Part shown: in pieces, positions 1,336 through 55,400 of the stretch
How the letters are laid out: each line of letters starts with the position of its first letter
How positions within the stretch are numbered: position 1 is the first letter of the stretch
Source: Limnomonas spitsbergensis
Lineage: Eukaryota; Chlorophyta; Chlorophyceae; Chlamydomonadales
Direction: 5' to 3'
Length of the DNA: 64,000 nt
Assembly: GCA_037349105.1 (NCBI GenBank)
Contig: JAYJMM010000022.1
Location: 682,001-746,000 of the forward strand
The notes under the pieces: generated by a model
The model's input: the letters and a program-made list of their open reading frames with translations, nothing else
The model's database searches: none
What the model was told of the DNA's origin: nothing
Made by a program: the position numbers and the translations under genes

Positions 1336-1342
1336 AGCAGCG

Positions 1343-5403: not shown

Positions 5404-8400
5404 ATGACGTCGGCCCCCGAGGATGCGGAGGAGAGGCGCATTGCGCTTGCGTTGAAGCTGCTATCTTTCAACGAACCGGGGAGCACTTTTCTGCAGAAGG
5501 CGGGAGCCCTGATCCGAAAGCATGGCATAAAGACGCCATCAGTGACAGTCTCATACAAGGTGATACGGTTCGATGGTGAAGTCATGCTCCTTTGCGGGTA
5601 CATAAAGCAAGCAAAAATGAACTAAGCTGTGATCTGCAGATACGCTGAATTGCAGTGATGTGCGGATACGCAGAAACGGTGGTGTGTATCATCTGACGTC
5701 GTCACTCCCCTCTTTTCAGGACCTCACCGTCTCGACGACAGCACTTGTGGGCAGCTCTGGAATTCCCACGGTTGGAAACTCTCTGACGAATCTGTTCTCT
5801 GTGAGTCCTGGTGTTGAACAGTCTCCTCATGCTGCATGGGAGGCATGCCATGGGACGTTGGACCCGTGCAGCATGGCCCTTCTGGGCCTGTAAATGGTGT
5901 CTACGCGTATAGGGTACTGCAATATTACATGTGAAACTGGTCACCGATGTCATGATTCATGAGCAGCTTTGTGAAATACATGATCACCTTGAGTGCTGCG
6001 GCCGAACATGTGGGTTTTATGATTGGAAACTCAGGGCTGTTGCTTTTCTAAATATCATGCACGTTGCAGAAACTACTGGGCCTGTCCAGCGACCGCAAGC
6101 AAGCGCAGCTGAATATTTTGAATGGAGTGAATGGAGTCTTGAAACCAGTAAGTTTCCACCTCTAGGCTGGCAGAGAGGCTAGACTCAGGGTGAAACTGGC
6201 CATGCAGCACTGCTGTCAACCTAGCCGTGCAATCCAGGCATGCAACCCAGCTATGCGACCCAGCCATGCAAATATCAGAATATGCAACTATTATGGTCTT
6301 GGATGTTTGGGGCTGGGGTTATAATAATTTACGGGCAGGCGGAATGCATGCCTGAGCATAAGAGCCTGTCTCAGCCACCGTCATTCGTGAAAATACGAGC
6401 CGTCAAATGGATGGGATCAAGAATAAATGCGACGACTGTCCCATGCGACGACTGTCCCATGCATGGTTTTTGTTTTCAGCTATTGGGCGTACTTTTCTGG
6501 GAGCTGGCGGTGTGAAAAAATGTGTGTGTGTGTCAATGCTGCGTGATGCAGGGACGCCTGACGCTGCTCCTGGGACCCCCCAGCTGTGGGAAGTCCACGC
6601 TGCTGAAGGCGCTGAGTGGGCGCCTGAAGCAGACGGCCATCACCAAGGTGGGAGGAGGCCCCTTCCTGTGTTGGACTCCCCAGTGTGTTACGGTCTGGAG
6701 CTCAATGTCTGCTCTCTACCTCCTCCCACCAAGTCTTGACCCCTACCCATTGCATGGCCCGGCGTCCCTGATTGCGCAGATGTCTGGAAGGATCGAGTAC
6801 AATGGAAACACGCCGGACAAGTTCCTGCTGCCCCGCACAACCGCTTATGTGGACCAGGTACGAGCATAAATCAAATATGCGGGCTAAGTGCCTCCCCCCT
6901 GAATCGGCATTTTTTCAAGCAGCATGGTGAGGGACTGGCAAATGTCCAAAGACGGAAGCACCGCAGGAGATGATGACCATAAGCTGTCAATTTGACCGCC
7001 TTGACGTCTAAGTGTGTGTGTGTGTTTTATTTAGATGGACAATCACAATGGCAACCTAAGCGTGGAGGAGACATTGCTGTACGCGCATGCCTGTCAGTCG
7101 GGTCTGCATGCATCATCATTCCTCGTCGCCCAAGATCTGGCCAAGGCCAGGAGGAAAACTCAGGCAAGTGATGAGGAGATCAAGTGATGCATACAGCCTC
7201 CTTCCTTGTCTCCCCAGGCCTGGCCACAGCCAGAAAGAGCACTGGAACATGTGACCAAATATGCATTTAGAAGGAGTGCTCAGGCAAGAGTCTACTTGGG
7301 CAAGACTTTCACTTGAGTCCATTTGAGCTGATGGATCCTCCCCGCGGCTTGCTTGTGTTCCCCTGCATTGGTGAAAACTGCTGGGCCCACTTGCCGCCGT
7401 GTGTCCTTTCCTTGCATACAACAGGGCGAGCGCTCTTGTTGTTGTCGGTGGTGGTGTGTGTGGGGGAGGGAGGATAATCATGGAAATGACCAATGCGCGG
7501 GACTTTGACGTGTATGTTTGCAGGATGCTGGCAATGGTGTCTCAAGCAACAAGGCGGGCGTTGCAACTCGGGGCAGAAAAGGGGATGAAGACTCGGATCC
7601 GCCCGGCGGAGATTGCCCGGAATCTTTTGAAGACATCCTCCAGGAGGTGGGCCCGGTTGAATGGTGCACCTACCTCTATTCAGCCACATTAGCTTACGGA
7701 GGGGCGGGCCTGGTGAGGCATTGTGCCTGCTGCTTGGGCTGCCGGCTGTGGGCCGGTCAAGGTTTGGTCCCCGGTAGTTAGCCGCCCAGCGGGAAAGACC
7801 CAAAGTGTTTCAGATGTTCTGCAGGAGGTGCACCGGTGCCTTATTTTTGTTGGCCTTGCCACCTGTGAGCTACAGCCTAGGCACCAACTGGCTACTGAGT
7901 GGAGGCCGTATGGCTAACTTGCGTTAGCCATACGGCCTCCAGTCAGTAGCCACTCGTACATACGCTCCTCTATTCCTTCCCCCCCACTTATCCTGCCTTA
8001 CCACTTGGGCCGCCGGCTGTAGTCAATGTCTGGCACCAAACGGGCTTTTTGCGGTTATGAGCCGGCCTGCTGATGGTGCACCAGCATCCCAAAAAATAGT
8101 CTTAAAGTCTGAAAGAAGCCACGCAGCCCTGACGCCATCTGTAAGAGTGGGCTTATGCGACTGCGAGGAAAGTGCACTCCAGTTGTCTCTTGTAAGTGTC
8201 GTGAATCACGTCTCGTGATTATCCTGTTAACCCTATCCGTGACCCCTCCAGCCCCTGCCTGTGCTGCCCCTCTCTTGCCATGCACCCCCTTACACCAACT
8301 TTACACCACCGCTCTCGCTCTCTTCTTGTCAGAGATAGCAAATGCCCACTAATTACCTTTCTTGCTCCCAGGTCATGGTGACTGATGCACGAGTGATTGT

Positions 8401-11400
8401 CTGGATGCACATGGTGGGCCTGATTCACTGCAAGGACACGCTGGCTGGGGACAACATGACGCGGGGCATCAGCGGCGGGGAGAAGAAGCGGCTCACTACT
8501 GCTGAGATGATGGTAGGGGATAGAGGGACGCAGTTAGGGGGAAGAGGGGGGGGAGGGAGCAGGCGCTGAGGGGGGTATAGATGGGGGTGAGAAGGGGGGA
8601 GGGAGCGGAGACAGGGGCTGCAGATATGGGGGAGAAAGAGAGGGGGGGGGGGGGGGGGGGGGAGGGGCTGGAGATGAGAGAGGTAGAAGGCCCCGTCTCC
8701 CACCTGCCTGATCTGTGTGGCAACTTATAGGAGTGCTATCCCTCCTGCTTGTTACCGTCCACGTCCGCATTTAGGCAGCAAGTGCACCGATTCCACTCGC
8801 TAGAATGCAGTCTAACCGTTTTATGTCACATACGTTTGCCATCCCCCTGCCTCGTCAACTTGCCCCCCCCCCCCCTTCTTGTCCCCTAAGTTTGCCAGCC
8901 CCTGCCCCTAGGTCCGCCTTTCCCTCACCAATGCTTGCCTGCCCCTTACCTTCAGTTTTCCAGCCCCTACCCCTAGTTATACCTACCCCCCAGTCCCCCA
9001 CCAACGGCTGCCTGCCTCCTAAGTTTGCCAGCCACTGCCCCTAGGTCCGCCTTTCCCTCACTAATGGCTGCCTGTCCCCTTATCCCCAAATTTTGCTAGC
9101 CCCTGCCCCTAGTTATACCTACCCCTCACCAGCGGCTACCTGCCCCCTTGTTTCTCTGCCCTGTGCCCTGAACCTGTTTGTGCCTGTTGTCACCAGGTGG
9201 GACCGCGCAATGTGATGTTCCTGGATGAGATGAGCACAGGGCTAGACAGCGCAACACTGTTCAGCATCATCAAGTGGATGTCGAATGTGAGAGGGGCCTG
9301 GCTGAAGAGGGCAGTGAGGAAGGAGGCTGGAAAGCAATGCTTTGTGTAGGGCGGGTTTGGGGGCCTGGTGAAGCAAGGTGCCTGCTGCTTAGGCTACCCG
9401 CCTCTTGAATGCCTCATGCCTGCATGTCCGCAGGTATGCAATAAGATCGGCACCCCTCGCCTCACGTATGCCTGATACCTGCCTGCCTTCCCTCAGGTCT
9501 GCAAATAGCTTGAACCTACCCGCCTCTTGAATCTACCCGTCTCTTGAATCTACCCACCTCTAGAAACTACCCGCCTCCTGAACCCACCCGCCTCTTGAAA
9601 CTACCTGTCTCTTGAAACTACCCACCTTTTAAAAATACCCGCTTCTTGAAACTACCCGCCTCTTGAATTCCTGATGCCTGTATGTCCGTAGGTGTGCAAT
9701 GAGCTCCACACCACATGCCTCATCTCTCTGCTGCAACCGCCCCCCGAGACCTACCAGCTGTTTGATGATGTCATCATGATATCAGACGGACTCATCCTGT
9801 ACCATGGTGGGTATTTTTGAGGGAGGCGTCAGGCAGGGTGCAGGTGGTGATAATGGGAGGTTCGGTTCAGAGGGGAAGGGAGGCATTGGTTTGCGTATTG
9901 AGTGGCTTGTAGCTGCATCACTTCATCATGCACCATGCTGGGGGACAAGAGGTGAACTGGTGATGATGGGAGGTGAGGTTTGGGGGGGGAGGCGTTAGAG
10001 TGGGCAGTGTATGGGCCATGGCCTCATCCTGTATCATGTCAGGGTGTGGAGGAGGAGGGCAGTGTGCAGTGCATGGAGCATGGCAGCAGCTAGAGGTGCA
10101 CTTTATCTGACAATACAGGATATGTTGTCAGCTTGCTCCCTGTCACCCCGTTGGCCCTGATTGAGCACCTTTGACTGACAGCCCCTGAAGAAGTGGGGAA
10201 TTGACAGCCTTCAATCTGAATCCCCCGGTTGGCAGGCCCCATGGAGGAAGTCCTTCCCTCCTTCACCAGCCTGTTTTTCTTCCGTTTCCCCGTTGGCCGC
10301 ATCATTTGCCATCTCTTGATTGAGATGCTGATGGAAATCAAAACCCGGAAATGTGTACCGGTATCTGGAAATGTGTACCTGTGTACTGCTGCCTGAAGCC
10401 TTCAAATTTGAAACACTGCACCCAGGTCCTGTGGAGGACGTCCTTCCCTTCTTCACCAGCCTGGGCTTCACCTGCCCCCAGCGCAAGGACGTGCCCTCCT
10501 TCCTGCTGGAGGTGACCACGGCCAGCGGACAGGCCCTGTATGCGAACGAGGAGCTGCGTGCCGCGAAGGGCCTCCGGCCGCAGGGAGCGTACAACGAGGC
10601 GGAGCTGGCCCAGGGGCGACGTGAGCGCAAGGCCAAGGCCATGGCGGTGCCCATTGCGGAGATCGCCGCCAGATTTTGGTCGGAGAACGAGCATGGGAGG
10701 CGCATGACGGAGGTGCACGGGAACATGAGGGGTCATGGGCCTAAAGCGGGCAGGGAAAGGAGTTGTATGGGCCATATGGGGACACGTGGGGTAGAACAAG
10801 GCGGAAGCTGTACCTGACACGCAGGACCACTGGGGGGCACGCCCTCTCATTGCGTGTTACAGGTTTTTGTATCCGTACTTGCGTTTCAATCGTGGCTGTG
10901 ATCCCAGCGCTTAATTGCAAGCTGCTCATTGGTTGCATTGGGTCTTGACCCTGATCTTGACTACCTCCATTGTGTTGTAGGCTTCTAGCTGTATTGATTA
11001 TTAAGTCTTGACTGCCTCAATTGGTTCTGAGCTGCATTGGTCTTGACAGCCTCAATGGGGCTTGACTGCCTGTAGACCAGTTTTTTCCCCCAGCTAAGGG
11101 ACATCCTTCAGCAGGCCGCCAAAGGCCCAATTGAGACCTAGCCAGGACGGGCCTACAACTAATGCCCAAGGCAGTTTGGCTGGCTACAACCGGGGCCTCT
11201 GGCTAGAAACCAGAGTGTAGCTGACATGTAGCTGAGTCACAGACAAAGATGCACTGCTGTAGACTGGCAATCCCCTTTATCAGATCCCTCTGCAGACATT
11301 GCCCTCCTGTTCCTCCTCCCCTACAGGAGCTGCACACTCCAATTGACCCCGCCTCCTGCCACCCTGGAGCCCTGGTGCACTCGCGCTATTCGCTGTCGCC

Positions 11401-14400
11401 GTTTGAAGCCATCTGCGTGACAACGCACCGGCAGATGACGCTGATGCTGAGGGACAAGGTCGTGCTGAGGGGGCGCATGGTGCAGGTGAGGGAGCTGTGG
11501 AGTGTCGTGTGCTTTGACTGCAATGCATCCACATCACAGCCTGAGGTTGGGGATGCTTGATCTCCAAATAACACTGTCATGTCGAGGAAGTGTCCTTGCT
11601 TGGGGGGGGGCATGGTCCAAGCACATGACGATGTACACGGTAGGGTGCTCTGGCTCAATTTAGCTTTATTGCGACCTTTTGGCGGAGGCTCGGCTAGTTG
11701 GCGCAACGAGCCATGCTGCTTGGGCCTTGTGCGACAGGCCGGTGAAGGCCCTATCACCCCAATGGTAGAGATGAGCTCAGCAGTGTCTCAAAGGGGCTTC
11801 CTCCCTGCAGGTCCACTGTGTTCACCTGCCCACCACCTAGCTGCACCATGCCTCCTGCCACTATGCCCCTTTTTCCCTATCTGCCTCCCTGCCCACACTC
11901 CTCTCAGTTGCCCCCTTTCCTCCCTTGTCTCCCTGCCCACCCTCCTTTCAGTCGCACCCAGCCTCCCATCTGGGTCCCTCTCCTCGCATGCCCACCCTCG
12001 GGGTCCCTCTCAGTCGCCCCCTTTCCTCCCTTGCCACCCTCTCCCCCCTTGTCTCCCTACCCATACAACACTCACTCGCCCCCTTACCCCCTCTCTCCTC
12101 CCTGCCCACACTCCTCTCAGTTGCCCCCTTTCCTTCCTTGTCTCCCTGCCCACCCTCCTTTCAGTCGCACCCAGCCTCCCATCTGGGTCTCTCTCCTCGC
12201 CTACCCACCCTCGGGGTCCCTCTCAGTCGCCCCCTTTCCTACCTTGCCACCCTCTCCCCCCTTGTCTCCCTACTCACACAACACTCAGTCGCCCCCTTAC
12301 CCCCTCTCTCCTTCCTGCCCACTCTATTCTCATTCGCCCCCTTACCCCCTCTCTCCTCCCTGCCCACTCTATTCTCATTCGCCCCCTTACCCCCTCTCTC
12401 CTCCCTGCCCACTCTATTCTCATTCGCCCCCTTACCCCCTCTCTCCTTCCTGCCCACTATCTTCTCAGTCACCCCCTTACCCCCTCTCTCCTCCCTGCCC
12501 ACTCTATTCTCATTCGCCCCCTTACCCCCTCTCTCCTCCCTGCCCACTCTATTCTCAGCCGCCCCCTTACCCCTCTCTCCTCCCTGCCCACTCTATTCTC
12601 ATTCGCCCCCTTACCCCCTCTCTCCTCCCTGCCCACTCTATTCTCATTCGCCCCCTTACCCCCTCTCTCCTCCCTGTCCACTCTATTCTCATTCGCCCCC
12701 TTACCCCCTCTCTCCTCCCTGCCCACTCTATTCTCATTCGCCCCCTTACCCCCTCTCTCCTTCCTGCCCACTCTATTCTCAATCGCCCCCTTACCCCCTC
12801 TCTCCTCCCTGCAGACTGTGGTGGTTTCTCTCATCATGGGCTCATTGTTCTACATGCTGCCCACCACCATGGCCGGAGCTAGGTCCTTTTTCGGGGCCGC
12901 CTTCATGTCCATGCTCTTCCTGGCCTTCGGGGGCTTCCCTCAGCTACCGATCACGCTGGAGATGAAAAAGTGAGGAGGGGGGCTTGAGGGGGAATTGTGT
13001 GCTGGCGTTGTGGGGGCTGGAGGTGAATAGTGGCATGATGGTGTTTGTAGGGAGGTGGAGATGAAGTGAGGAGGGGGGCCCGAGGGGGAAAGCGATCTGG
13101 CGTTTGTAGGGGCTGTTTGTTCCTTCGACCAGAGAGTTTGGTATGGCTGCCTGGCGCTGAGGCCAGTGCCCCCCTCTCCCCACTTGTCTCTTGGCTTGAG
13201 TCATATTACGTGGTACCCCTCCTGGTATTTATTTAGGGTTCCATGACTGAGACAGAAAAGGCCTGGCTCATGATGGGGCCCTGCTAAGCCCCTAGGAGCC
13301 CGTCACTAGACTTGAAATCAAGTCCTTGCCAAACTCTGCCCCTCGTATATTAAGAAACTCTCGCCATCCAACCCTCTCTTTTGTTCCCGCGTGCCTCTGC
13401 GCAGGGTCTTCTACAAGCATCGCGACAACTGCTTCATCCCCGCCTACGCCCAGGGCCTAGCCATTGCTCTGGTGCAGCTGCCAGTGTCCCTGCTAGAGGC
13501 GGCCCTCTTCAGCCTCATCATCTACTTCATGGTGCGGGCATCTATAATCGTGGATATTCTATATTTAAACCAATATCTTGTAGGTTGCACAACACTCCAA
13601 ATCCCCGATAGAAAAATAGATTACTGTGTGTATATTCTACCGTATTTATAAGCTTCAGATGGGTGGGGCTGGGGGGGCTTAAAGAAAGCTGCTGATGCTC
13701 TTCTCTTTGTTTTGGGGGGGAGGGAGACTGTGTGGCAGGCGCCGCAGGGAATTCCAGCCTGCCCACTCAGCCAGCACACACAAGTACAAAGAATGAGGAT
13801 CGGAGGACGGTATATCCTTGGGTCGGGCAAGGGGCACGGGTGTGGCGTATGTCAAGTTTGAATGAGAGCCAATGCTAAGGGGACCAGATGTTGCCTCACT
13901 CCCTGACCTCCCGGTTGTAGGTGAGAAAAAGCCCTAGTTCAATCCTGTTTCTTATCGATTGTATAATTTGGTGGCCCCAATGCGGTCCAGCTATCTCCTG
14001 GTCCCTTGCCAGAGGCTCCATTTGCAGCCAGCTATGCTCTTTGGTGGACCCATAGCCAACATCAGAAATTACCTGATGTATTTCTGATGATTTGCATACG
14101 CCCCTGTTTCTTTGAGTACCACTGTGTGAGGGTTAAGGGTTCAGGCACTGCGATCCTGTGCCGCGAACCCTAAACCTTACAAGGCACCGCGAACCCTAAA
14201 CCTTGTTTTTTACCACGTCATGTAACCAAGGTTTATTATTATTTTTAATACCGGTGGTTGGGGTAAACAAATGGTTTGGCCTGTGCCCCGCACAACTTGC
14301 TCAGGTTCTACATAACGCCCTTCATCTACATACTTACTTCTATGATGTGGATTCTACATACTTACAGCTTGTGGCCCGCGCCCTCTCCTCCAGGTCGGGT

Positions 14401-17400
14401 TCTACATGGCCCCCTCCTACTTCTTTACCTTTTACGCCATCTCTGCCGGCCAGTCGCTGGTCTGCTCGGCCATCTTTCGCTTCATCGCTTGCATCTCGCC
14501 CAACATGGTGGTCGGCAACGCGTGCGGGGGGATGGCCATAGTGCTGCTGATTGTGACGTCAGGTGAGTGCCTGCTGGATCTGGTCTGGACAAAGGTTGGA
14601 TCTGGGCTGGACAGGCTGGATCCAGCCCGAGCCCAGCCCAGATCCAGCCTTTGTCCAGCCCGTGCCCAGCTTAGATCCAGCCTTTATCCAGCCAGTGCCC
14701 AGCCTTTGTCCAGCCCAGATCTGGGCTGGACAAAGGCTGGATTTCGGCTGGATACGGGCTGAGTCTGGGCTGGATCTAGGCTGAACAAAGGCTGGATCTT
14801 GGCTGGACACGGGCTGAGTCTGGGCTGGATCTAGGCTGAACAAAGGCTGGATCTTGGCTGGACACGGGCTGAGTCTGGGCTGGATCTAGGCTGAACAAAG
14901 GCTGGATCTAGGCTGGGTACGGGCTGAGTCTGGGCTGGATCTAGGCTGAACAAAGGCTGGATCTTGGCTGGACACGGGCTGAGTCTGGGCTGGATCTAGG
15001 CTGAACAAAGGCTGGATCTTGGCTGGACACGGGCTGAGTCTGGGCTGGATCTAGGCTGAACAAAGGCTGGATCTTGGCTGGACACGGGCTGAGTCTGGGC
15101 TGGATCTAGGCTGAACAAAGGCTGGATCTTGGCTGGACACAGGCTGGATCTGGTCTGGACACGGGCTGGATACAGACCACATGGGCTGCCTGCATTGCGG
15201 CTCGTGTCTGGCATGTTTGTGATTGCACTACTGCCTGCATGGCTGTCCCCGCTGTTGCTGCTTGGTCTCTCCGCCTGGGCTTTGCTCCTGGGATAGGGTC
15301 TGTGTGCACAGCCACACTATTCTTGCTGTTGCTGTCTGGGCTGGTTCCTGGCTAGGGTCGACTGTGCTGGTGTGCCTGCAGTATGATGCCCTCTACAGCC
15401 AGGGCATGAAGGGAAGCCTCAAATCCTGGACGTTTTCCATGCCGCAGGATTCGTGATCGTGAGAGATAGCATCCCCCCGTGGATCATTTGGGCGGTGAGT
15501 CTGTTTTCTAGGGGTGCGCTGATGTGGAGGGGTGCCTGGTAGGGGTGGGTTACACACATGGTTGTTCTAGTGTTCAAAGTATAGCAACTCTGATCAATTT
15601 CCACACAAATTATAGCATAATGCAGCACGACATCGACTTCATTCCATGTTCAATGTACTTAAATGAACAAATGTAATATGATTAAGACAAACACCCAGGG
15701 TATTCTTGTAGCATGTGGATGTGATTTGGTGGTTTGGAAGCTGCCATGGCGGCATGGGGCTTCAATGTACGCCCTCCCCTCCTTCGCCGACCCCTCCACT
15801 TGACGAACCCGTCATTGGCTGTGCCTGCTGCTCACGTCCCCTGACCTTCACTCGCCCCTGCCCCATCTGGAACACTCTCCTTTGTCATCGTGGTCGTCAT
15901 CCTCAACGCCCTCCTTCCAATCGCAGTATTACAGTGAGTTTGTCTCCTAGTCGGTGTTGTGTATGTTTGTTGGAATCCTCCAACAGTCTGAACCAGGGGA
16001 ATGCCTCATTTGTTTGAAGCAGGGGAATGATGCCCTGTTTGTTTGAATTGTCTACCATATCTTACTCACCGCTGGTCCTTGGAGCTGGTTGCACTCTGCA
16101 CCTCCCCCACTGCTAATTTCTGGTCCTTGACACGACTGTGGGCCCCTCTGCCCCCTCTGGTTTGTTCCCTGCTCTCTCATACACAACTGATCTGTCTCAT
16201 GCTGCTCCGCGCTGACCTGTGCCCTGCTGTCCTCTGCCCCGTGCTGCTCGCAGTCTCCCCCTTCAGCTATGCCTTGCGGTCTTACGTGGTCAATGAGTTC
16301 TCATCACCCAAGTGGCAGGCAAGTGCTGGACCCTGGCTTGAGTGTTCCAAAACCGAAGAATGGTTCTAGGTACCCGGTACTCAGCATGTTCTTAAAAGCT
16401 CAGCATGCTCTTCAAAGCTCAGCATGCTCTTACAAGCTTTGCAGCATTTTAAAAAGTCTGCACACACAGGAATCATTAGGTGTGGACTTTGTCATCAAAG
16501 TGGCCGGCAAGTGCTGGGCTGGCAGTCCTTGGCCATCAAGTCCTGCTGTCCTGGGCTTGAATGCCCGTCCGAGGATTGGTCCTGGGCTGGTGCATCTGAG
16601 GTGCTGCCTGAACCCATCAATTGTTTATCCTCAGCCTGCCCCGAGGGGGCCAAAGGCTGAAAGGGGCCCTCGAGGTCGCTGGGTGGGAACAGGCAGCTTG
16701 GACTCCACACTGGACCCTTGAAATAACGTCCCTGTGTGTATTAAGGGGCCTATGATTCCTTTTGAAACAAACAAATTGTGGAGAGGTAGCTGACATGCCT
16801 GCCCCCTCTAGGGTCTGTCTGGTATATCACAATAGATCGGTAATGTTGAACTAATAGGGTCTGGACACAGCTGTACCCTGGTTGGGGGGAGGGAGCTATG
16901 TCTGTGTCTGTGATCCCCACTCTCCCATGTCACCCTCCCTCTACCCACCCCATCTTTGTTGGCCACCCTCCTCTCCCTTCCACCCTCCTGGTCTCCACCA
17001 CCCCTCCCTCCCCACCCTCCTACTTACTGTCCGCCAATCCCCTACCCCCACCCTCCCCCACATCACCCTCCCCTTGCCCACCCCATATGTGCTAACAATC
17101 TTCCTCTTCCTTGTCACCCCCCTGTTCCTCTCCACCCCTCCCTCCCTCCCCACCCTCCTGCTTGCCACCCTCCACTCCCTACCCCCAGCCCTTCCCCTCA
17201 TCACTGCCCCCTTTCCCAGAGCGTGATGGTACCTGGATCCACCCAGTCACTGGGGAACACGGTCCTGCTCAACTACGATTTCTACACGGACACCACCTGG
17301 ATCTGGTGAGATCTAGTGGGGGCTGGGTTTGAATATGTACAGAGACTGGTATGGTACTCTGATTTTAAATTTTGTGAAGGTACTGTACAATCGCACATGC

Positions 17401-35211: not shown

Positions 35212-35275
35212 GATTGACACCAAACCTGGACCGATAGTACAAAGCAGTACTATCGGTCCAGGTTTGGTGTCAATC
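35212..35275. repeat. 29-bp perfect inverted repeat built on the dispersed-repeat end
   Basis: Arms 35212-35240 and 35247-35275 are perfect complements around the 6-nt loop AAAGCA. Each arm contains the CCAAACCTGGACC motif of the dispersed short repeats, so two head-to-head repeat ends may have formed it. Confidence 0.93.
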
Positions 35276-41220: not shown

Positions 41221-41301
41221 GTTTGCTGCCGCCTACCGCACCTGGTTTCAGTCTACGGCGGGCGCAGGCCAGGGGCCGCACCAGCAGAAGGGAGTGCTTG
41301 C

Positions 41302-41805: not shown

Positions 41806-41909
41806 CACCATCTCCCCTTGCCCAGCACCACAGGCACCAAGCACATGCATGCATGCAGCTATCTACCACGCCTTGTTTCAGCCTACGGCCGGCACCGCAT
41901 GTGAAATAC

Positions 41910-42859: not shown

Positions 42860-45800
42860 ATGCAAAAACAAGTGTTAGGGAGATGCCAACAAGGCCTGCA
42901 AATCCGTAGCCCTAGAGGCCAACGAGCGTTTCTGAAACCCCGGCCTGCGGACATTTGTCCGCTGCATGCCAGGCGTCTCATCGCCACGCACACCCCTTCT
43001 AAATACACTAGTCATTTGAATGACTTGCCTCCTCCGAAATCGCCGGTCGCTGTCCCCGGCGGTGTGGAAGCAGCTAGCATCGCCCTGTCAGAGATGACGT
43101 TGAGCATCGACCACGACATCATATCCTCGGGAGAGTTCTCAAGCGAAGAGGCGGAGGACGAGGGTCAAGGGAAGGCACATGCCTACAACAAGGCTACTTT
43201 TGAGGTGACCTGAGAGGGGCCATGGAGCACATGAGGGACATGAGCCAGCATGGGCCTGTTCCAGTGGGTAGGTGCATGGTGCTGGGATTTGAAAAATCAG
43301 GAGAGGATGTTCAAGATTCCTCGAAATGATTCCTCGAAATGAACCTGGCCGCTGAGCGCAATCTAGGCCTCTTCATGAGCTCTAGAAGTAGGTTAGCGCA
43401 CACACGTGCCACACTCGTATCATCACCACTGATCGATCACCTGCTGGAATGCGTTGAGTGGAGGGCTTCATACTTTCTTGCCTTGGTTGCTGCATTTTTT
43501 CCAGAACACATGCTATGCCACTTTTTTCGATAAGAGAATTAGATGTAGTTGACTTGTCTGTGCTTCGCAAGTCATTGAGATAAATACTTTGGCACCTGCA
43601 GGTGTTGCTTTTATCTGGACAGATCCGGGCAGGCTAGGCAGATTTATGCAAGAAGTACAGGGCCTGCTTTGATGTTTTAAAACCCAGCCTGCCCGCCTCT
43701 GCATGCTGGCTGTTCAGGTCCTGCGCCTGGACAGATCCGGGAAGGCTAGGCAGGTGTATGCGCGGCGGCGGGACCTCCTCAAAGAGCATCGGCTGCTGCC
43801 GCGGGATCTCCGGCGCATAGATCTGTCCGTGGATCCGAACAAGGCCCCCGCCTCCATTACCATCAAGGACAACGTCATCCTGCTCTGCCTCGGGGGGGTT
43901 AGGTGAGCAATTGGTGGGACAAGTGAGATGGAACATGCAATATGGAACATGCAATATGGAACATGCAATATGGAACATGAAGGATGATGTCATCCTGTTC
44001 CGCAGGGGTCAGGTGAGACAAGTGCTTGTTTAGTGTGCGGTGGACCACCTATGGGTAGCTGCCGGGTAGCCACCAATCGGGTCAGGTAAGACAAGTGCTT
44101 GTTTAGTGTGCGGTGGACCACCAATGGGGGCAGTGGGGACCGAATCTGGAAGCCGCAAGGTTTGTTGCGCCAGGCCCTTACGGTGTAGGCTGTGAAAGAG
44201 CTGAATTGTGGCTGGACCATGCATTTAGAAAAAATGGCATGCTGTACATCCTGGGCATGCTGTACAATCTGGGCATGCAGTGCATTCCGGGCATGCAGTA
44301 CATCCTGGGCATGCAGTATATCCTGGGCATGCAGTACATCCTGGGCATGCAGTACATCCTGGGCATGCAGTACATCCTGGGCATGCAGTGCATTCCGGGC
44401 ATGCAGTACATCCTGGGCATGCAGTACATCCTGGGCATGCAGTACATCTTGGGCATGCAGTGCATTCCGGGCATGCAGTGCATTCCGGGCATGCAGTACA
44501 TCCTGGGCATGCAGTACATCCTGGGCATGCAGTACATCCTGGGCATGCAGTACATCCTGGTTGTTGGGTGGACGTGCAGAGGCTGTAAGAAAAACAATAT
44601 CATTGCACGCCACGGCATCCAGCAGCGGTGGCTGACCCCCCCCCCTCCTTTGCCCTCTACCCAAGCAGCGGTGACTCGCCCCTCCCCCCCTCTCTGCCCT
44701 CTGCTGACCTCCCCCCTTCCGTCCCCTCTTCCTCCAGGATGTTGCTGACGGGTGAGAAGGCGCTCATCTTTGAGCCCCAGGCTGAATCCACGCGGAAGTT
44801 CTTGGAGGTAGTCCAGCAGCATGTGCAGGCGCGCCAGCACCCAGGCCTACAGGGGGCAAGCCCCTCTGCCCTCAACCTGAGATCAGGCGCCAGTCACACG
44901 GAATACATGAACAGGCAAGGAGCTATCTTAAGATAGTGTGGAGGTTTACTGCTCTTGTTGATCGGCTACCTTGAGGTGGAGTGTTGAAAGCTGGTACAAA
45001 AGAGTGTGGGTACAAGCAATGTAAAAACACGGTACAAAATATGGCATCATGCTCCCTGTACACGATCGCATGGCATTACCGTCCCTGTACATTATCGCAT
45101 GACGAAGGTAGGACAAGCGTCAAAGGTCAGGCGGGCGACTAAGGTCAGACCAACTGAGGGATGTAAATACCCGATCCTTTCTCTATAGCTCACCAAGTAT
45201 ATCACGGCTTGATATGCAGCAGAGCTTGTTTAGAGCTTGCGTGTTTGGTAGGCTGCTGGGCTGCCAGTGATGGGCCGATGGGTACCAAACCTGGAACTTT
45301 CCATGGCCGTCGGCCTGGGCAGCAGGGCTTGCTGCATGAGGTCCTCTCGGCTGCAAGACGTGCTGACGCTCAATCTTAGCTTCAGTGCCGTAATACGAAC
45401 AAAATACAGTATAAGAGCTCTATTGAACACGTGACATCTGCGGCATGCCCCAACCCTGTCCTCTGGGACACGAGCCGTTCTGTCCATGTACCTGCCTGAC
45501 AGTTTACGTTCGTCTGCTTCCCCCTGGTCGAGAAAGGGTGACCACGTTGCTGTTGTTGCTGCTGTTGCGCAGATACTACCAGAACTATCAGCAGAAGAGT
45601 GATGAGCAGGCCATGATCCCACCCCCATTTGAACTAGAGGTGGTGGAGGCAGCCCTCATGGTGGCCACAGGTAGGGTTGAGGGTTGAGGCCTGGAGGTCA
45701 GGGGATTACTTTTGAGGCGATGAAACAGCAATCGTAATGGACGCAGGTTGGGTTGAGGTTTTCATTCAAGCCGAAGGGTTCAGGGTTTTGCGCAAGGTAG

Positions 45801-48800
45801 TGGAAGCAGCCCTAAACAGTCATTACAATGGATACCCAGAGGTGCTCCAGGCCTGAGGAGCAGAGAGGGTGTGGAAAGGGCACATGTCTGAACTTGACAA
45901 CTGTGCTGGGGACTGCCACCAGTGTGCAAAAGCGTGGCGCATCGTCCTGGAGGTTGTGAAGGATGGTGGCTCAATGCTATCAGTGCTGTGCAATTGCCGT
46001 AATTCAGACACTGTGTAAGTAATCACGGTCCCTTGCGGGTAAAAGTAGGTATGTTTTTCTTGTAATTACGGTGACTGAAACTCAGCCACGTAATTTAGCC
46101 ACCGTAAGGACCGTAATCGGCACAGTGCTGAATGCTATGCTTGTGGCTTATCCTGTGCTGCCTGTTATAATCTGCCCACCCTAGGCTGCCTCCTGTGTGC
46201 TGCCTGTGTCCCCTGCACTGCCAAGTGACCATGCCCGCTCTTTTATATATGCCTGTGTGTCTGCCTGTGTGTCCCCTATCTACAGGCAAGCTGGATGTGC
46301 AGATGGCCACTGTGACCCGTCACGTGCAGCAGCTGATGAAGAAGATGCCCCAGGACATCAGCCCGTTGAACCTGGAGGAGTTGCGCCGAGTGAAGGGTGT
46401 GCTGGTGGATCTAGAGCAGAAGGCAGACACACTCAGGTGGGTAGGTCTGGTTGGGGAGCAAACCCTAGGTGGTGGGCAGGGAGCCAGGACATCAGGCCTT
46501 TGAATCTGGACGAGCTGCGCAGGGTGAAAAGGGGGGGTGGGGCTGGTGGATCTAGAGTAGGAGGCAGGCACACTCAGGAGGGTAGATCCGGTGTTTCCTT
46601 TTACGTGACTCAGCTACATGTCTGCTACAGTCTGGCCTCTTGCCAGAAGCCCTATTTGTGGCCAGCTATACTGCTTTGGCCACAAGTTGCAGGGCGGCCT
46701 GCCATAGGTGGACTTGTTGCCAACAAAATAAGCACTGGGTGGACCCGGTGGGCAAACCTTGAACCCAGGACGTCCCGCCCAAGTGCATGGGGGACTGAGG
46801 GGTGGGAGGCTGTTAATCTTTGGATTGTTTTTTAACAGTGTGAGGAATAGGTGTGTGTGGTTTGCCCAGAAGGGGCATTGTTTTTAGTAATAAGATGTTT
46901 TAAATGAAGCAGGCACTCAGGGAATCTTTCTCAAAAAATAATATGCACATGTTTGTTTCATTTTTTATTTCCGGGGAATGCGTTTTGGATTACCGTGACA
47001 CTTTCCCCTCTGGGGTCCTGTTTCCTGCATCCTGGGCATCCTGGGTCCCTGTGCATGTCCCTACCGCTGCTGCCCCCCTGCTTTAGGAACATGTTGGAGG
47101 AGTTGATGGACGACGAGGACGAGCTACGGGAGCTCAACCTCACGAGCCGACCCAGGCGCGAGGAGAGACGGCGACAGAGGGAGAGAGAAAGGCTAGAGCG
47201 CGAGCTAGAGAGGTACGGGGGGGGGAGCAGTTTGTCGATAGTCCTTTTCTGACCACTGTCATGAGCCTGAAGCCTTGCACATAGCTTTAAATATCTTTTC
47301 CTTGGGTATGCAGTTATTTCTGCATCCCAGCCGCTCAGGCGGTCAATCGCACAGGACGCTTCACGTTTGGGCAAAGGTGGCTGACGCTTCTAGTCCTTTC
47401 AATGATCGATTGGTTTATTTTGAACAGCAACGAAGTGGGAATGAGGCAAAGGAAGCACCGGTATTGTGATTTTATTGTGTGTTGAAGGGCCACCCGTAGA
47501 TTTGAATAGCCCTCCCTTGGGTATGAATTAATAATCATTTTGATGCCTCAGGGCTTTTAACCTGTACCCAAACCAGAGACCAAAACACTAGATCCCCGAC
47601 AGTTACTGGCGTCGACATAATCGATCATAAGTGTCTTTGTGTATCCCGCACGAACCCTTGTGTTATGCTGTCATTGTAAGGGAAGGCAAAGCATATCTAC
47701 AAAAGTGAATACTAAAACAAATGTACTGGTAGATGATTATAAATGAAGCTATGTTGAGGCAGAAATCCATTAGAAAGATGCGCCACAAACAGTACGGTTA
47801 TACAGTACCCTAGTACCCTGCACCCTACACCCTGAACCTGGAAGTTAATGTCTTTATTAGCCTGTCGACTCCTGTGTCTGCCTTTTGTAACCTTACAGGG
47901 CCCAAGAAGTTCGAGAGGAAATCGAGGAGTCTGTGGGCAGCTGGCGGAAGTTGCAGAATGACGGCCCAGACTCCGGGGTCGATAAAGCAGCAGGTGCTGC
48001 CAGCAGTGCTCAAAGCAGCAACAAGAACAATAATGGCAATGGAGCAGGCGCGTCAGGAGGGAATGGAGTGGCGGGAATGGCAGGCGCGGAGTGGGAGCTT
48101 GGCCCCGGAGGAATGCCCATGAGCTCGCAAAATATTAGCTCCGCAGCCGCCAAGGCGAGCGGCAAGCCCTCAGGCTACCCCAAGGTGAATGGCACTGTAC
48201 CGCGCAGCTTCCGAGGAGAAGGGATGTATGCTTCGCTGCAGTTGGAGATGGAGCAGAGCGGCAGGAGCCATCTCCTGCAGCCGTCTAACGCATCTGGCGC
48301 CGCAGCCGCGACGCCGCAGCCGCCCGCCCCATCGAACCTATCCCCTGAGCAGCGCAAGCAGCGCGTGCAGGACCTGCGCGCTAAGTTCGACAGAGTGCGC
48401 CTTCTGGAGCTTCGCTCAAAGTTCAACTGGGCGGACCGCGAGCGACGCGAAGATAAGGACGACAAGGATGGCGGAGGCCGCGACCAGCGCCGCAGCCGCG
48501 GCACCTCGGACCGTGACGATTCTACGAGTGGGGAGCGGGATGAGTGGATCAGCAGACTGGAGGGAAGCAATGATGATATCCAGGAGGCGCAGGAGGCACT
48601 GGAGGAGATGGTGGAGGCTGAGGAGGAGGAGCAGGAGGTGGAGGAGGTGGAGGACCTGCTGGAGTATTACCTGCAGCGTGCCTCCACTACGCAGGATGAA
48701 GCAGAACGGCTGCTGGCAGGTGAGGGAGCAGGGGCCAACCAGGGGGACAGGGGGGCAGGGGGCAGGGGGCGACTGGGAGGGTTGGGGGACAGGGGCAACA

Positions 48801-51800
48801 AGGATGCAGGAAAGGGTGGAGCGGCGGCTGCCAGGTGAGTAAGGGTAGAGTGTGACGGGAAGGGAGCACACGTGTAGATTCAGGAGGCCCCAAGGATCAG
48901 GGGGGGAGCACAGGGGTGGATGTAGGGGGCAGGAGGGGGCACGGGTAGATTTAGGAGGCCCCAAGGATCAGGGGTGGGGCACAGGGGTGGATGTAGGGGG
49001 GCAGGAGGGGGCACGGGTAGATTTAGGAGGCCCCAAGGATCAGGGGGGGAGCACAGGGGGGGATGTAGGGGGCAGGAGGGGGCACGGGTAGATTTAGGAG
49101 GCCCCTAGGATCAGGGGGGGAGCACAGGGGTGGATGTAGGGGGCAGGAGGGGGCACGGGTAGATTTAGGAGGCCCCTAGGATCAGGGGGGGAGCACAGGG
49201 GTGGATGTAGGGGGCAGGAGGGGGCACGGGTAGATTTAGGAGGCCCCAAGGATCAGGGGGGGAGCACAGGGGTGGATGTAGGGGGGCAGGAGGGGGCACG
49301 GGTAGATTCAGGAGGCCCCAAGGATCAGGGGGGGAGCACAGGGGTGGATGTAGGGGGCAGGAGGGGGCACGGGTAGATTTAGGAGGCCCCAAGGATCAGG
49401 GGGGGAGCACAGGGGTGGATGTAGGGGGCAGGAGGGGGCACGGGTAGATTTAGGAGGCCCCAAGGATCAGGGGTGGGGCACAGGGGTGGATGTAGGGGGG
49501 CAGGAGGGGGCACGGGTAGATTTAGGAGGCCCCAAGGATCAGGGGGGGAGCACAGGGGGGGATGTAGGGGGCAGGAGGGGGCACGGGTAGATTTAGGAGG
49601 CCCCTAGGATCAGGGGGGGAGCACAGGGGTGGATGTAGGGGGCAGGAGGGGGCACGGGTAGATTTAGGAGGCCCCAAGGATCAGGGGTGGGGCACAGGGG
49701 TGGATGTAGGGGGGCAGGAGGGGGCACGGGTAGATTTAGGAGGCCCCAAGGATCAGGGGGGGAGCACAGGGGGGGATGTAGGGGGCAGGAGGGGGCACGG
49801 GTAGATTTAGGAGGCCCCTAGGATCAGGGGGGGAGCACAGGGGTGGATGTAGGGGGCAGGAGGGGGCACGGGTTGATTTAGGAGGCCCCTAGGATCAGGG
49901 GGGGAGCACAGGGGTGGATGTAGGGGGCAGGAGGGGGCACGGGTAGATTTAGGAGGCCCCAAGGATCAGGGGGGGAGCACAGGGGTGGATGTAGGGGGGC
50001 AGGAGGGGGCACGGGTAGATTCAGGAGGCCCCAAGGATCAGGGGGGGAGCACAGGGGTGGATGTAGGGGGCAGGAGGGGGCACGGGTAGATTTAGGAGGC
50101 CCCAAGGATCAGGGGGGGAGCACAGGGGTGGATGTAGGGGGCAGGAGGGGGCACGGGTAGATTTAGGAGGCCCCAAGGATCAGGGGGGGAGCACAGGGGT
50201 GGATGTAGGGGGGCAGGAGGGGGCACGGGTAGATTCAGGAGGCCCCAAGGATCAGGGGTGGGGCACAGGGGTGGATGTAGGGGGGCAGGAGGGGGCACGG
50301 GTAGATTTAGGAGGCCCCAAGGATCAGGGGTGGGGCACAGGGGTGGATGTAGGGGGGCAGGAGGGGGCACGGGTAGATTTAGGAGGCCCCTAGGATCAGG
50401 GGGGGGCACAGGGGGGGATGTAGGGGGCAGGAGGGGGCACGGGTAGATTCAGGAGGCCCCAAGGATCAGGGGGGGAGCACAGGGGTGGATGTAGGGGGGC
50501 AGGAGGGGGCACGGGTAGATTTAGGAGGCCCCTAGGATCAGGGGGGGAGCACAGGGGTGGATGTAGGGGGGCAGGAGGGGGCACGGGTAGATTTAGGAGG
50601 CCCCAAGGATCAGGGGGGGAGCACAGGGGTGGATGTAGGGGGGCAGGAGGGGGCACGGGTAGATTTAGGAGGCCCCAAGGATCAGGGGGGGAGCACAGGG
50701 TTGGATGTAGGGGGGCAGGAGGGGGCACGGGTAGATTTAGGAGGCCCCAAGGATCAGGGGGGGAGCACAGGGGTGGATGTAGGGGGCAGGAGGGGGCACG
50801 GGTAGGTTTAGGGGGGCTCGAGGAGGAGTGGAGGAGCACAGAGGGTATAGATGTAGATGAGAGGGGCAGGTGGGGAATAGGGGCACATGCAGATGCAGGC
50901 GTGAGCATGGGGTCTCGGGCAGGGGACTCAAGCAAGGGTTTAAAGGAGGGCACTGGGAAGCTGTGGGAAGGCACTCGGTATCTGACAGTGTGACAAGCTT
51001 GTTTTTTCAAACTGCGTGGTATATTTGAATTCAAAAGCTGTTCATGGCAGGGCTCAAGTTCAAATACCGAAATACGGTATCGAGTTCAGTTTGTCCTTTC
51101 TTGACACGAGGGTTGGGGTATTGCTTCAGAGAATCAGAGCCCCTTCCATGATTGATCTGAAGATGTGGATGAGAGGTTATCTCCGCCCCTCCGCTGCCTG
51201 CTGTAAGAGAATGCACATGGGTGAGGGACCAACGCAGCAGAGGATAGCCAGGATTCAGGGAATGTGTCAAGCAGGGGACACAAAGCACCCAAAGTGCTGA
51301 AATGGGTGTGGTTGATGAACCTTGAGTTTTGTCGGGACGGTGTGGTAATATGACCCGTGGTCATCCCTGATCCCTTTGCCCCAGGCAACCAGGTGTTTGG
51401 GATTGAGCAGTCCCCCCTGCTGCCGAGTCTTGTCCCTTTTTTCTTGAAGTGCCCGACCTCAACACCGGTCCGAGGAGCACTTAAACTTGACCGGCCTGCG
51501 AACGGCGGCATCATCAGCACGACTTGCTGCATCAGACCTCAAGGCTGGCGTGGTGACATACTGGTGTAGCAGCATTCTAGCCTGAATACCCTCAAGGTAA
51601 ACCATGCATTCGTCTCCTTCCCACAGGAGCTCGTGACCTGGAGGAGTCCATCGGCGTCTCGCTCAGCGCCCGGCGCTATGAAGTGAACCGCCTGGAGCTG
51701 ACGCTGGCCATCGGCAGCTTCTCAGCCACGCTGGGGGCCATGGTGGCTGGCATCTTTGGCATGAACATGCGGAGCCAGCTGGAGGCCAGCGTGATGAGCT

Positions 51801-51889
51801 TCTGGGGGATAGGCGTCGCGATCGTGCTGGGCTGCCTGGCCATATTCACCGCCATCCTGAAGTACACTCAGAGAAGGCGCATTTTGTAG
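42860..51889 (+). CDS. CorA/MRS2-type Mg2+ transporter, 8 exons, 721 aa
   Basis: Predicted pentameric Mg2+ channel of an organelle membrane. The C-terminus has two membrane helices (about 657-678 and 693-715) with GMN at 679-681, the family's selectivity motif, in GIFGMNMRSQLE. The soluble part has family landmarks: RDLRRIDLS, PPPFELEVVEAAL, an ELMDDEDELRELNLTSR segment and VEDLLEYYLQ. The N-terminal ~75 residues are basic and Ser/Pro-rich, like a plastid or mitochondrial presequence; the destination is not decided. A long insert (about 375-600), Gly/Asn/Ala-rich then charged, makes it larger than usual (~400-450 aa). Exons: 42860-43204, 43718-43902, 44738-44914, 45573-45670, 46286-46436, 47087-47212, 47899-48719, 51627-51889; total 2166 nt, in frame throughout. 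Exon 3 ends at a GC donor. Its 3' end converges on the phosphatase gene. Confidence 0.93.
43610..43652 (+). repeat. copy of Mg2+ transporter exon 2 5' region
   Basis: TGGACAGATCCGGGCAGGCT-AGGCAGATTTATGC matches the coding TGGACAGATCCGGGAAGGCT-AGGCAGGTGTATGC 112 bp downstream (43728-43761), with few mismatches. Confidence 0.92.
43978..44125 (+). repeat. copies of Mg2+ transporter exon 2 donor edge
   Basis: GATGTCATCCTGTTCCGCAG then GGGTCAGGTGAGACAAG repeats the exon 2 end (AACGTCATCCTGCTCTGCCT … GGTTAGGTGAGC). A 72-bp direct repeat (GTCAGGTGAGACAAGTGCTT at 44008 and 44080) follows. Just upstream (43930-43980), GGAACATGCAATAT occurs three times, followed by a GGAACATGAAGGAT variant. Confidence 0.82.
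44236..44562 (+). repeat. 18-bp minisatellite in Mg2+ transporter intron 2
   Basis: About 18 copies of GCATGCAGTACATCCTGG, some as GCATGCAGTGCATTCCGG. The 18-bp unit keeps all frames open, giving false ORFs on both strands (for example repeating GMQYIL). Each unit contains the palindrome GCATGC. Confidence 0.95.
44915..44916 (+). other. GC-AG intron donor (Mg2+ transporter exon 3)
   Basis: Exon 3 ends ATGAACAG|GCAAGG. Phase 2 joins to exon 4 at 45573 to give …NRYYQNYQ. No GT donor fits the frame. Confidence 0.8.
45255..45365 (-). repeat. dispersed short repeat copy
   Basis: GGGCCGATGGGTACCAAACC-TGG, GGCCTGGGCAGCAGGGCTTG and TGCATGAGGTCC match the inverted family members. Confidence 0.6.
46482..46590 (+). 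pseudogene. duplicated, broken copy of Mg2+ transporter exon 5
   Basis: Intronic copy of the last ~100 bp of exon 5 (original about 46346-46448): DIRPLNLDELRRVK… instead of DISPLNLEELRRVK…. It includes CTGGTGGATCTAGAGTAGGA, where CAG has become the stop TAG, plus a small frameshifting change in a G-run. The donor position has become CACTCAGGAGGG, losing the GT. A decaying pseudo-exon, not part of the mRNA. Confidence 0.92.
46605..46730 (+). repeat. dispersed short repeat copy
   Basis: GTGACTCAGCTACATGTCTG, GGCCTCTTGCCAGAAGCC and CTGCTTTGGCCACAAG align with the reference copy; the TTTGGTCC part is missing. Directly follows the pseudo-exon. Confidence 0.75.
48800..48846 (+). repeat. copy of Mg2+ transporter exon 7 donor edge
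   Basis: GATGCAGGAAAGGGTGGAGC then GGCGGCTGCCAGGTGAGT resembles the exon 7 end (GATGAAGCAGAACGGCTGCT-GGCAG|GTGAGG) 120 bp upstream. The duplicate retains a good donor, so a longer exon ending at 48834 is conceivable. It would change the frame into exon 8. Confidence 0.7.
48863..50818 (+). repeat. ~71-72 bp G-rich minisatellite, about 27 copies
   Basis: Unit: AGGGGTGGATGTAGGGGGCA, GGAGGGGGCACGGGTAGATT, TAGGAGGCCCCAAGGATCAG, GGGGGGAGCAC. Variants (CCAAGG/CCTAGG, GGTGGGGC, extra G) recur in blocks, indicating higher-order duplication. It fills most of the 2.9-kb intron before the last exon. The display of open frames on both strands is a repeat effect. The remainder of the intron (50819-51626) shows nothing notable. 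Confidence 0.97.
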
Positions 51890-52431: not shown

Positions 52432-55400
52432 TCATGCAGCCACCTTCTGCCCCGTCAGCGCCTGTTTTGCACTGAGGAGGTCGCTGAGCTGTGTCATGTA
52501 GTAGTCTGGAATGATCTTGTTATCGGGACTCAGGAGCGTTGCCTCGTCAGTCACACCTGGAGGAACGGGTAGGAATACTTGGGTTAGTTCCAACTGGTAA
52601 CTGCTGCAGGAAATGGGAAGTGGCAGCCAGGCATGTCAAATTGGTGAGTGCCTTGTCAGGTAAGCTGCAGTGATCCTTTCAGTGCATGAAACTAGCTTCA
52701 GCAGGCCACAGGGGCCATGGGGGACCAAGCCTTGACCTGCTGACAGCCGATGGACGAAGCAGCAGGGCTTGCTGCTCCAGGCTGCTCCAGGCTGGCTGCC
52801 CCACGGCCAGAGGCCGTGACGTAGCAGTAATTTAGCTGAAGCACCCTAACATTGACAGTGCCAAAGCTGTACCTGACAGCACCAGGGCGGTCGTCAGGCC
52901 GCCATTCTTGCCAAACATGATGTCCGTGTCCAGGCGGTCTCCAACCTGTTGTTGAGAAAGGCACAGCCGATCAAATTGTGCGAAGGCAGATCAATCAAAG
53001 GTGCAATGGACACACATTGATTTCATGAATGCCGAGGCATGTCAATCTAATAAGGTATGACAGACACACAAATGATGAAATGACCAAATGAGATATGAGT
53101 AATTTCAATAAGAGATTAAGAAGCCAATCAAATTAAAGATCCTCTGGATCAAAAAATGCACATGGCTTTCAACAAGGGTGGGAACCAGACATTCAAATGA
53201 TTTTCAACAGCCAGGCCATGACACAGTAGGGTTGTCCCAGCATGCGAATCTAATCCCATGGCTCCCCCCTCCCCCCGGGGTCCCACCATGCAGATCTGGT
53301 CCTTCTTGAGGTTGAAGGTGGTGGCAATGTTCTCCAGCATGAAGTCTGAGGGCTTGCCAACCACTAGGGGCTCCCGTTTGCAGGATCCTACAATGGCGCC
53401 CACCATGGCACCGTTGCCTGAGGGGGGAAGAGAAATGCACCAGAGGGGAGTACAGTCACACAGAAGGGGAGAAGGGGGATGCATAAGAGAAATAGAGGCT
53501 GGCAGGCATGAACACCACAGAAGCTATATGTCCCTTGGAACCAACTTCATCAAAACCGTTTGCACGCTAAGTTCGACGCACCAGCCCACTCCCGCACATC
53601 TTAATCCACAATCCCACTCAGTTACCAGACCTTCACCCTGAACCCAAAACACACCAACCCACTCCTACACGTCTGTCAGTTCCAAACCCTGAACCCACAA
53701 TCTAACTAGTTCGCGTCTGCCAGACCTTTGCCCTCAACCCCAAACGCACCGGCCCACTCCTGCGCGTCAGTGAGATGCGTGACTGCATCCCTGTTGGTGG
53801 CGATGAAGAGGCAGCCGGGGTTTTCACGGATGCACAGCGTTGCGTACTGAACCTTGTAGTAGTTGAGATGACGGTCAAAGCCCACGACCACAGCACCAAC
53901 CTGCAGGAGTGATTCAAATACAGCAACTTAGCACGGGTACGGCAATGCTGGGGCCCAAAATTCTCGCAGAAGCTGACATGTCATTTGCATGAAGGGACGT
54001 TTAAAATACAACAACTCTAAGGTGCGGCACTGCCGTGGTCCTAGAATCTTGTAGTAGCTCACACGTCGGTCAGAGCTGAACACCACAGCTTCAAAGCTGC
54101 AAACCAAAGTCAAAGCTCCCATATTGAGGGAAGTAATTTGTTGTCCCTTTGTTTTCTATTTCTTGTCGCAGGCACCTTTAGGAGTAAAAATCATACAAAC
54201 GACCACTCAGTACTGGTACAGTGGGCGCATGTGTATCTGGCATAAGGCAGGGGCTGCAGTTCCAGGGAGCCTGGCTGCTGGGCTCCCCCAGAGCCATGAA
54301 GCCACACCAGATAACATGCAAACTAATCTGCATGCTGCTTGCTTTAAAACTATCCCCCCCGACACTCACATCCTTATCATGCTCCATGAACTCGCCCGGC
54401 CCCAGCTTGACCTTCTTATCGCCATCGCTAGGCCCACCCAGGTGGGAGATGCCCTTGAGATCCAGCTCCTGCAGGATGCCCTCCTCGCCAATAACATACA
54501 CCTGGAGTTAAATATGACAGGATAGGGTCAAATATTCGATGCAGGGGATAATGGCCTACAAACAGGATTGAGCACTACAGAAGGGGGGTTTAGGGTTGCC
54601 CTGGATGGGGATGCAGCTGTGAGGGAATATCGAGACGGTCATATGAGAGGATATGAGACTATGCGCCTGCAAGCATGCGAGATATTCACTTGAGATAAAG
54701 AGTGTTATACACCACCACTTGTGCCCTACGGCCTGCCTGAAAGCATGCGAGATATTCACTTGAGATAAAGAGTGTTATACACCACCACTTGTGCCCTACG
54801 ACCCGCCTCAGACAATCCAGTTAACAGCTGTATGTTTCAAAACTGAATGGTTCCTGGTAGTCATGCACGGGTTACAATGTAGGCCTTCTTCACTGTTTTT
54901 TTTTGTGGTTCAACTACATTTCAGACACAGCCAGCAGTGCTTGGTTGCTTGCACCACCGGCCGTAGGCAGGTCCAGGTTTGGTCCCCATCGGCCCAGCGA
55001 GGGCAGCCCAGCCCCCCATGTCAGCTCCCTAGGTAGATACGTCTGATGTGTATTCCAATAGACACTGACCTTCTTCTTGAAATCAATTGAGTCCAGGTAG
55101 GCGGCAGCTGCGAAAGATGATGAGTAGATCTCCTCCTGGAGGCCAGATCAGAGGAGACGTTCGCAATCAGAACTGACATAAGAACCCGTGATTACATTTT
55201 TGTGAATGGAAATGTGTGGATTGCAGAGGAAATACTCCTTCAGATTCAATGGATGAGAGATTTGTCAACATTTTTTTTTAAGAACATAGATATGTGCGTT
55301 GGCATCTGCCCAGGTTACTGACCCTGAAATATCGCTAAATAATTTAAAATATCATAAATCACAGCATCATAAATGCACTGCCCCATCCGCCGAGCATAAT

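Follow-up and report, generated by a model that had tools for sequence, protein, structure and literature searches.

Direct copies of exon edges and their splice sites recur in introns of the green alga Limnomonas spitsbergensis

How often is the border between an exon and an intron copied into the intron itself? The human CBS gene offers the closest described cases. Its 31-bp variable number tandem repeat (VNTR) at an exon/intron boundary is a boundary-spanning minisatellite of repeated splice-site-like units, and its 844ins68 variant carries a direct copy of an exon edge and splice site in the adjoining intron. For 844ins68, splicing is reported to favour the distal site strongly (PMC2630376). 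Here we describe copies of this kind in the chlamydomonadalean alga Limnomonas spitsbergensis, in a window of 64,000 nucleotides (G000:C22:682001-746000 of a 260-Mb, 124-contig genome) and in genes elsewhere in the same genome. Under a uniform re-test of all samples, 46 of 291 exon edges (16%) have a match in the intron they adjoin at z≥4, and the match covers the exon-intron junction in 43 of 48 alignments. Whereas 844ins68 is one polymorphic human site and the VNTR a single locus, copies occur here in 42 of 148 sampled introns, on donor and acceptor sides. Single boundary duplications are known, 844ins68 being one; the density measured in this genome is unreported in the open-licence literature that we searched, where no report of self-boundary copies at such density was found.

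Other systems act on intron borders in related ways. Intron gain by tandem genomic duplication (PMC3443670; PMC4974935) likewise depends on small tandem duplications acting on splice signals, but it makes a new intron, whereas here existing introns receive the copies. Could the introns themselves have arisen when exon segments containing AGGT were duplicated in tandem? This is a known mechanism of intron gain (PMC3443670), but none of 26 donor-edge copies ends 10 nt or less from the 3' end of its intron and none of 22 acceptor-edge copies starts that close to the 5' end, and we find such an origin hardly credible. Direct repeats have also been found beside intron borders above chance (PMC11782384); these are 4-30 bp long, lie between the 5' and 3' borders and are read as insertion footprints, whereas in the present case it is the exon edge that recurs inside the intron. 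Finally, introners also supply intron sequence repeatedly and to many genes (PMC9860276), but they are dispersed families of related sequence, whereas each copy described here matches its own exon.

The evidence comes from two sets of genes. Four window genes, designated A, B, C and D, were modelled by eye and contain 56 introns; the models are predicted from sequence, and all four spliced reading frames are open end to end. Genes outside the window were picked by family, not by repeats, and supply 97 introns: 54 from ABC-transporter paralogs, 28 from chaperonins and 15 from dyneins, the last being five compact loci out of about 16 listed. Introns below 100 nt or above 3000 nt and exon probes that were too short were excluded before counting, as were low-confidence spliced junctions (54 introns remain in the ABC set, none of them from gene C41) and family segments that were not adjacent. 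For each window edge, at most 40 nt of exon were aligned to its own intron, and the score was set against 200 dinucleotide shuffles of the same intron and against the remaining 55 window introns. This exon-only test gave p≤0.005 at 18 of 110 window edges, where about 0.55 are expected, and z≥4 at 15 of 110; for 17 edges the own intron was top-ranked of the 56 (about 2 expected). Mismatched exon-intron pairs, a control suggested in a first-pass annotation of this DNA, reveal a strong excess of own-edge matches: scores of at least 76 were reached by 15 of 110 own pairs and 26 of 6050 mismatched pairs in the window, by 19 of 104 own and 18 of 5512 other introns among the ABC paralogs, and by 12 of 52 and 11 of 1404 among the chaperonins. 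By these cross-intron scores, which concern edge copies only, no introner-like sharing among introns was found.

Edge copies are confirmed as a widespread feature beyond the window genes. Copies at z≥4 were found at 15 of 110 window edges, 19 of 104 in the ABC paralogs, 11 of 52 in the chaperonins and 3 of 30 in the dyneins, together 48 of 296 (26 donor and 22 acceptor). The recurring process that the first-pass annotation had proposed from three window genes thus extends to genes elsewhere in the genome. A donor-side preference was considered and rejected: 24 donor and 12 acceptor events in two gene sets pointed to it, but it was gone once the chaperonins were added (2 donor and 9 acceptor edges). 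Copy-bearing introns numbered 2 of 25 at 100-250 nt, 8 of 33 at 250-400 nt, 13 of 32 at 400-600 nt, 12 of 42 at 600-1000 nt and 7 of 16 at 1000-3000 nt, a trend to be read with the caveat that a longer intron is a bigger target for copies. The contrast between the shortest and longest classes makes it plausible that the process lengthens introns, as had been suggested. For one dynein locus (L040) the joined exons align over all 328 residues to the outer-arm gamma dynein chain of entry 7kzm, which we take to be from Chlamydomonas reinhardtii; the alignment is gap-free at the exon junctions, one of which carries a copy.

What is the anatomy of a copy? Orientation is direct, with inverted probes reaching z≥4 in only 8 of 825 cases (1%). 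When the probe is shifted into the exon, the match rate falls from 46 of 291 at the edge (donor 24 of 145, acceptor 22 of 146) to 25 of 281 at 20 nt (10 of 140 and 15 of 141) and 9 of 253 at 40 nt (4 of 125 and 5 of 128). On the donor side 23 of 24 matches come within 3 nt of the junction, on the acceptor side 18 of 22, and the edge-to-copy offset is mostly 70-290 nt. The claim that the copies seed decoy splice sites is borne out to the extent that the GT or AG dinucleotide is retained in 27 of 43 alignable copies (donor 13 of 24, acceptor 14 of 19), which is about the level predicted from the copies' overall identity. Some copies are nearly perfect, for example 40 of 40 nt in C26_0_8, and the process is therefore recent or continuing. 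Growth into minisatellites, also claimed, holds for some copies only, where head-to-tail arrays were found (e.g., 20765-21003).

We propose, as the probable explanation, that local tandem duplication is pervasive and that junction-straddling events are tolerated as the outer splice sites stay in use. Introns would steadily gain direct (tandem) duplications of nearby sequence, in most cases about 50-250 nt apart, presumably by slippage or microhomology-mediated repair. A duplication straddling a donor or acceptor would leave within the intron a second version of the exon edge, complete with splice site. The outermost splice sites are presumably still those used in RNA, so that the protein would be unchanged and the duplication would survive. 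The copy, presumably neutral, would then decay like other intron sequence, some copies would expand into minisatellites, and selection against exon changes would filter local tandem duplications. Strong targeting to junctions is not needed by this explanation.

Direct orientation, junction anchoring, donor-acceptor symmetry and abundant interior repeats fit local tandem duplication. Intron-interior windows in the 64-kb window match elsewhere in the same intron at z≥4 in 105 of 406 and 102 of 406 cases, so that interiors match as often as edges or more, partly from a few large arrays. Real introns contain 83 duplicated blocks and their shuffled controls 6; detectable duplicated blocks account for 31% of the intron sequence in the window and 46% of that sampled outside it. 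Presumed intergenic parts of the window (600-5300, 32100-42700 and 57300-58900, 16.9 kb) have 0.36 blocks per kb, fewer than the 1.05-1.45 of introns, but two unannotated gene flanks, with 0.96 and 0.86, do not bear out this contrast. Near-exact tandem duplications, collected over 337 kb, overrun their unit by at least 5 nt in 31 of 48 cases, several of them within older arrays; such overrun is as expected from slippage or microhomology-mediated repair. The youngest cases look truly tandem: in 11 of 48 copies the match extends to the distal half as well, so that the full unit is visible.

Several observations weigh against this proposal. In the other 37 of those 48 copies only the edge-proximal half of the unit is significant, and simple tandem duplication is no more than a candidate there. 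Inverted matches were found at 4 of 145 donor edges. Duplicated blocks in the 153 introns were also compared with uniform placement, and 64 of 151 blocks of all ages straddle junctions where 33.7 are expected, as do 30 of 76 blocks at ≥80% identity where 17.2 are expected (P 0.0004). Lastly, strictly interior blocks lean towards junctions, with a mean relative distance of 0.35-0.45 compared with 0.5 for uniform placement.

The failing distal halves, together with the unmatched stretches that often separate edge from copy, would suit a rival of tandem duplication, namely templated insertion through error-prone end joining or template switching. Such insertion would be expected to capture exon interiors and the inverted strand too, but exon-interior windows match in only 2 of 190 cases and inverted probes are as rare as given above; we rate it distinctly unlikely.

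The junction counts speak instead for a junction-biased process, with breaks, R-loops or stalled forks at exon-intron boundaries being repaired by local re-copying. Besides the excess at ≥80% and the interior lean, this reading gains from the younger blocks at ≥85% identity, where 16 of 54 straddle junctions against 11.1 expected (P 0.058), and where, by a second definition of blocks, 23 of 62 (16.6-18.7 expected) and 23 of 57 (15.6-17.7 expected) do so (P 0.013-0.11); the second definition also reproduces the excess at ≥80% (39 of 88 against 24.5-27.1, P 0.0003-0.0014). At ≥90%, however, the excess is insignificant (11 of 36 against 6.9, P 0.062; 14 of 40 against 10.4-12.1, P 0.11-0.27, by the second definition). 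Moreover, the excess grows as older blocks are included. An exon-edge copy decays against a constrained partner, and we infer that it remains recognizable for about double the time of a pair of intron copies; this slower decay predicts such growth and can explain it. The junction excess and the interior lean may thus be detection effects or a real bias. Purely uniform placement is not fully supported either, old and mid-age blocks being over-represented at junctions. Depending on the definition, the junction share of blocks at ≥85% is 1.2-1.6 times uniform (P 0.013-0.27), and a mild bias of up to about 1.6-fold is possible, but a process biased to junctions seems to us unlikely, if less so than templated insertion. 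Of the recurring, junction-biased process that the first-pass annotation had put forward, the recurrence therefore stands; the bias is not established, given the modest ratio in younger blocks and the repeat-filled interiors.

Are the copies instead relics of true ancestral tandem exons? They do resemble exons, but they are partial, begin at the junction and extend into the intron. Two recent chaperonin paralog pairs, L034/L035 and L038/L039, each on different contigs, bear on this question. Their matched exon stretches are roughly 80-92% identical, and of five homologous intron pairs three are without a match and two match only over 23-66 nt. Both L038 and L039 carry an acceptor copy at one and the same junction, but these two are of unequal extent (the intron part is 4 of 20 identical in one and 16 of 20 in the other) and have no derived exon base in common, and the L038 copy has 4 of 4 L038-specific exon bases; they are therefore separate events. 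An ancestral tandem exon is thus improbable for L038/L039, while the L034/L035 data are equivocal and common ancestry of those two copies is conceivable. Overall we judge that relic exons are very unlikely to account for the copies. The homologous introns of both pairs are also of quite different length.

Local tandem duplication bears on a wider question. In volvocine algae introns are unusually long relative to genome size, and the authors who report this describe the driving mechanism as unknown and probably ancient (PMC8226300). Tandem duplications of small size that introns take up, including those across splice junctions, are a measurable mutational source that makes this intron-length question testable, and edge copies may help explain the length of such introns. 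That a lineage-wide duplication process, transcription-coupled or mildly drawn to borders, is the main engine that lengthens and rewrites introns in these algae and supplies them with decoy splice sites is a speculation that we hold only tentatively and think unlikely to be true. True and decoy splice sites are identical at origin, and the copies therefore form a natural set of competing sites. They will also confuse gene prediction, as was seen when the dynein family search matched partial repeats of exon ends in two genes, C75 and C92.

Within the window, the first-pass annotation had listed 20 sites, each of which we scored by exon-only z≥4 or junction-spanning p≤0.01 at the place claimed. 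Fifteen were confirmed: donor-side sites at 7184-7292, 9912-10055, 13055, 16490, 18948, 20775, 24200, 25653/25814, 26243/26374, 43980 and 46482, and acceptor-side sites at 9402, 10220, 43610 and 54048 (minus strand). Two are weak (7806-7836, p 0.025; 26600-28020, p 0.03), and three fall short of significance (28825, p 0.12; 48800, p 0.20; 20445, p 0.10). Clear copies missing from that list lie at 11588-11619, 14301-14341, 31422-31442 and 53658-53683 (minus strand), and weaker ones (p 0.005, z 3.4-3.9) at 30045-30074, 45795-45815 and 19441-19475.

Gene A (5404-31911, plus strand) is a predicted PDR/ABCG full-size ABC transporter of 38 exons, with Pfam matches PF00005 and PF01061 in the first 701 residues, the part scanned. 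Copies do not make up all of its intron sequence. Its first donor-side copy, of the exon A6 edge (7163), lies at 7208-7290 (exon-only z 5.7; junction part p 0.015). Exon A10 is copied on both sides: its start (acceptor 9692) at 9414-9464 (exon-only z 5.1, junction-spanning z 14.9) and its donor edge (9806) at 10018-10058 (z 5.0 and 4.7). The start of A11 (acceptor 10426) recurs at 10233-10273 (z 14.1 and 4.9). The A12 donor edge matches 11588-11619 with exon-only z 6.0, although three other introns score as high or higher. At the A13 donor junction the copy (13054-13085) is mostly intronic, being 29 of 32 identical with junction-spanning z 9.9 and exon-only z 0.9; here and at 20775 the matched part is more intron than exon. 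The start of A15 is copied at 14301-14341 (exon-only z 4.5). Donor-side copies of the A18 junction, which has a GC donor, and of the A21 junction lie at 16492-16523 (28 of 32, junction-spanning z 7.4) and 18942-18976 (26 of 33, z 5.4), and the A23 donor junction has grown into a minisatellite at 20775-21003 (junction-spanning z 10.9) within the array already mentioned, whose periods are 25 and 50. Further donor-side copies are those of A27 (edge 23951) at 24205-24240 (exon-only z 6.4, junction-spanning z 4.0); of A29 (edge 25561), first at 25657-25695 (28 of 39, junction-spanning z 4.0) and again at 25810-25848 (exon-only z 8.9); of A30 (edge 26136) at 26278-26331 (z 10.2 and 10.8, with a self-match of 98 nt at offset 178); and of A37 at 31422-31442 (exon-only z 4.4).

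Gene B (42860-51889, plus strand) is a predicted MRS2/CorA-like Mg transporter of 8 exons (Pfam PF22099 and PF01544). The start of exon B2 (acceptor 43718) is copied at 43615-43645 (exon-only z 11.0) and its donor edge (43902) at 43978-44028 (exon-only z 5.0, junction-spanning p 0.01). The long donor-side copy of B5 (edge 46436) spans 46491-46592 (exon-only z 14.9, junction-spanning z 11.6), with positions -80 to 15 relative to the donor matching 54 to 156. Gene C (52432-56177, minus strand) is a predicted HAD-family phosphatase of 10 exons (PF13344 and PF13242); on the minus strand, exon C7 is copied at its donor edge (53658-53683, exon-only z 6.0) and at its start, 53900 (54056-54094, z 6.1). 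Gene D (59015-63416, plus strand) has 4 exons and only sub-threshold Pfam matches to TerD and UQ_con; none of its exon edges has a significant copy in the exon-only test.

A number of side observations accompany these genes. Between two transmembrane exons of gene A (13532-14393) there are about 20 residues fewer than in its relative P0005, and an exon may be lost or missed in the model. A metagenome-contig protein, P0001, matches the gene A transporter with 80% identity over 38% of the query and contains stretches ending IALVQVRAV and PLTIMAK twice each; as a lead, it looks like the translation of a frame that passes through duplicated exon edges. In a half-size ABC transporter cluster, near-exact tandem duplications of apparent coding exon ends lie near 4762 in L018 and 3819 in L019 (periods 82 and 105). 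GC-AG introns usually make up about 1% of introns elsewhere; here they number 7 of 153, with 4 of 56 in the window (7164, 16319, 44915 and 62863), 1 of 54 in the ABC paralogs, 1 of 28 in the chaperonins and 1 of 15 in the dyneins, L032 and L043 among the loci concerned. An Rfam scan of the window gave no matches. Intron 7 of gene B holds a 71-bp minisatellite of about 28 copies (48869-50846). By eye only, a dispersed short repeat with the phrases 'gtagctgaa' and 'gcagcagggcttgctgca' recurs in introns and between genes, for example near 11080-11260, 19100-19460, 23440-23800, 46620-46790, 56900-56980 and 59370-59500, and is perhaps a SINE- or MITE-like family. Also by eye, perfect or near-perfect inverted repeats lie at 7890-7960 (intron A7) and 17890-17950 (intron A20).

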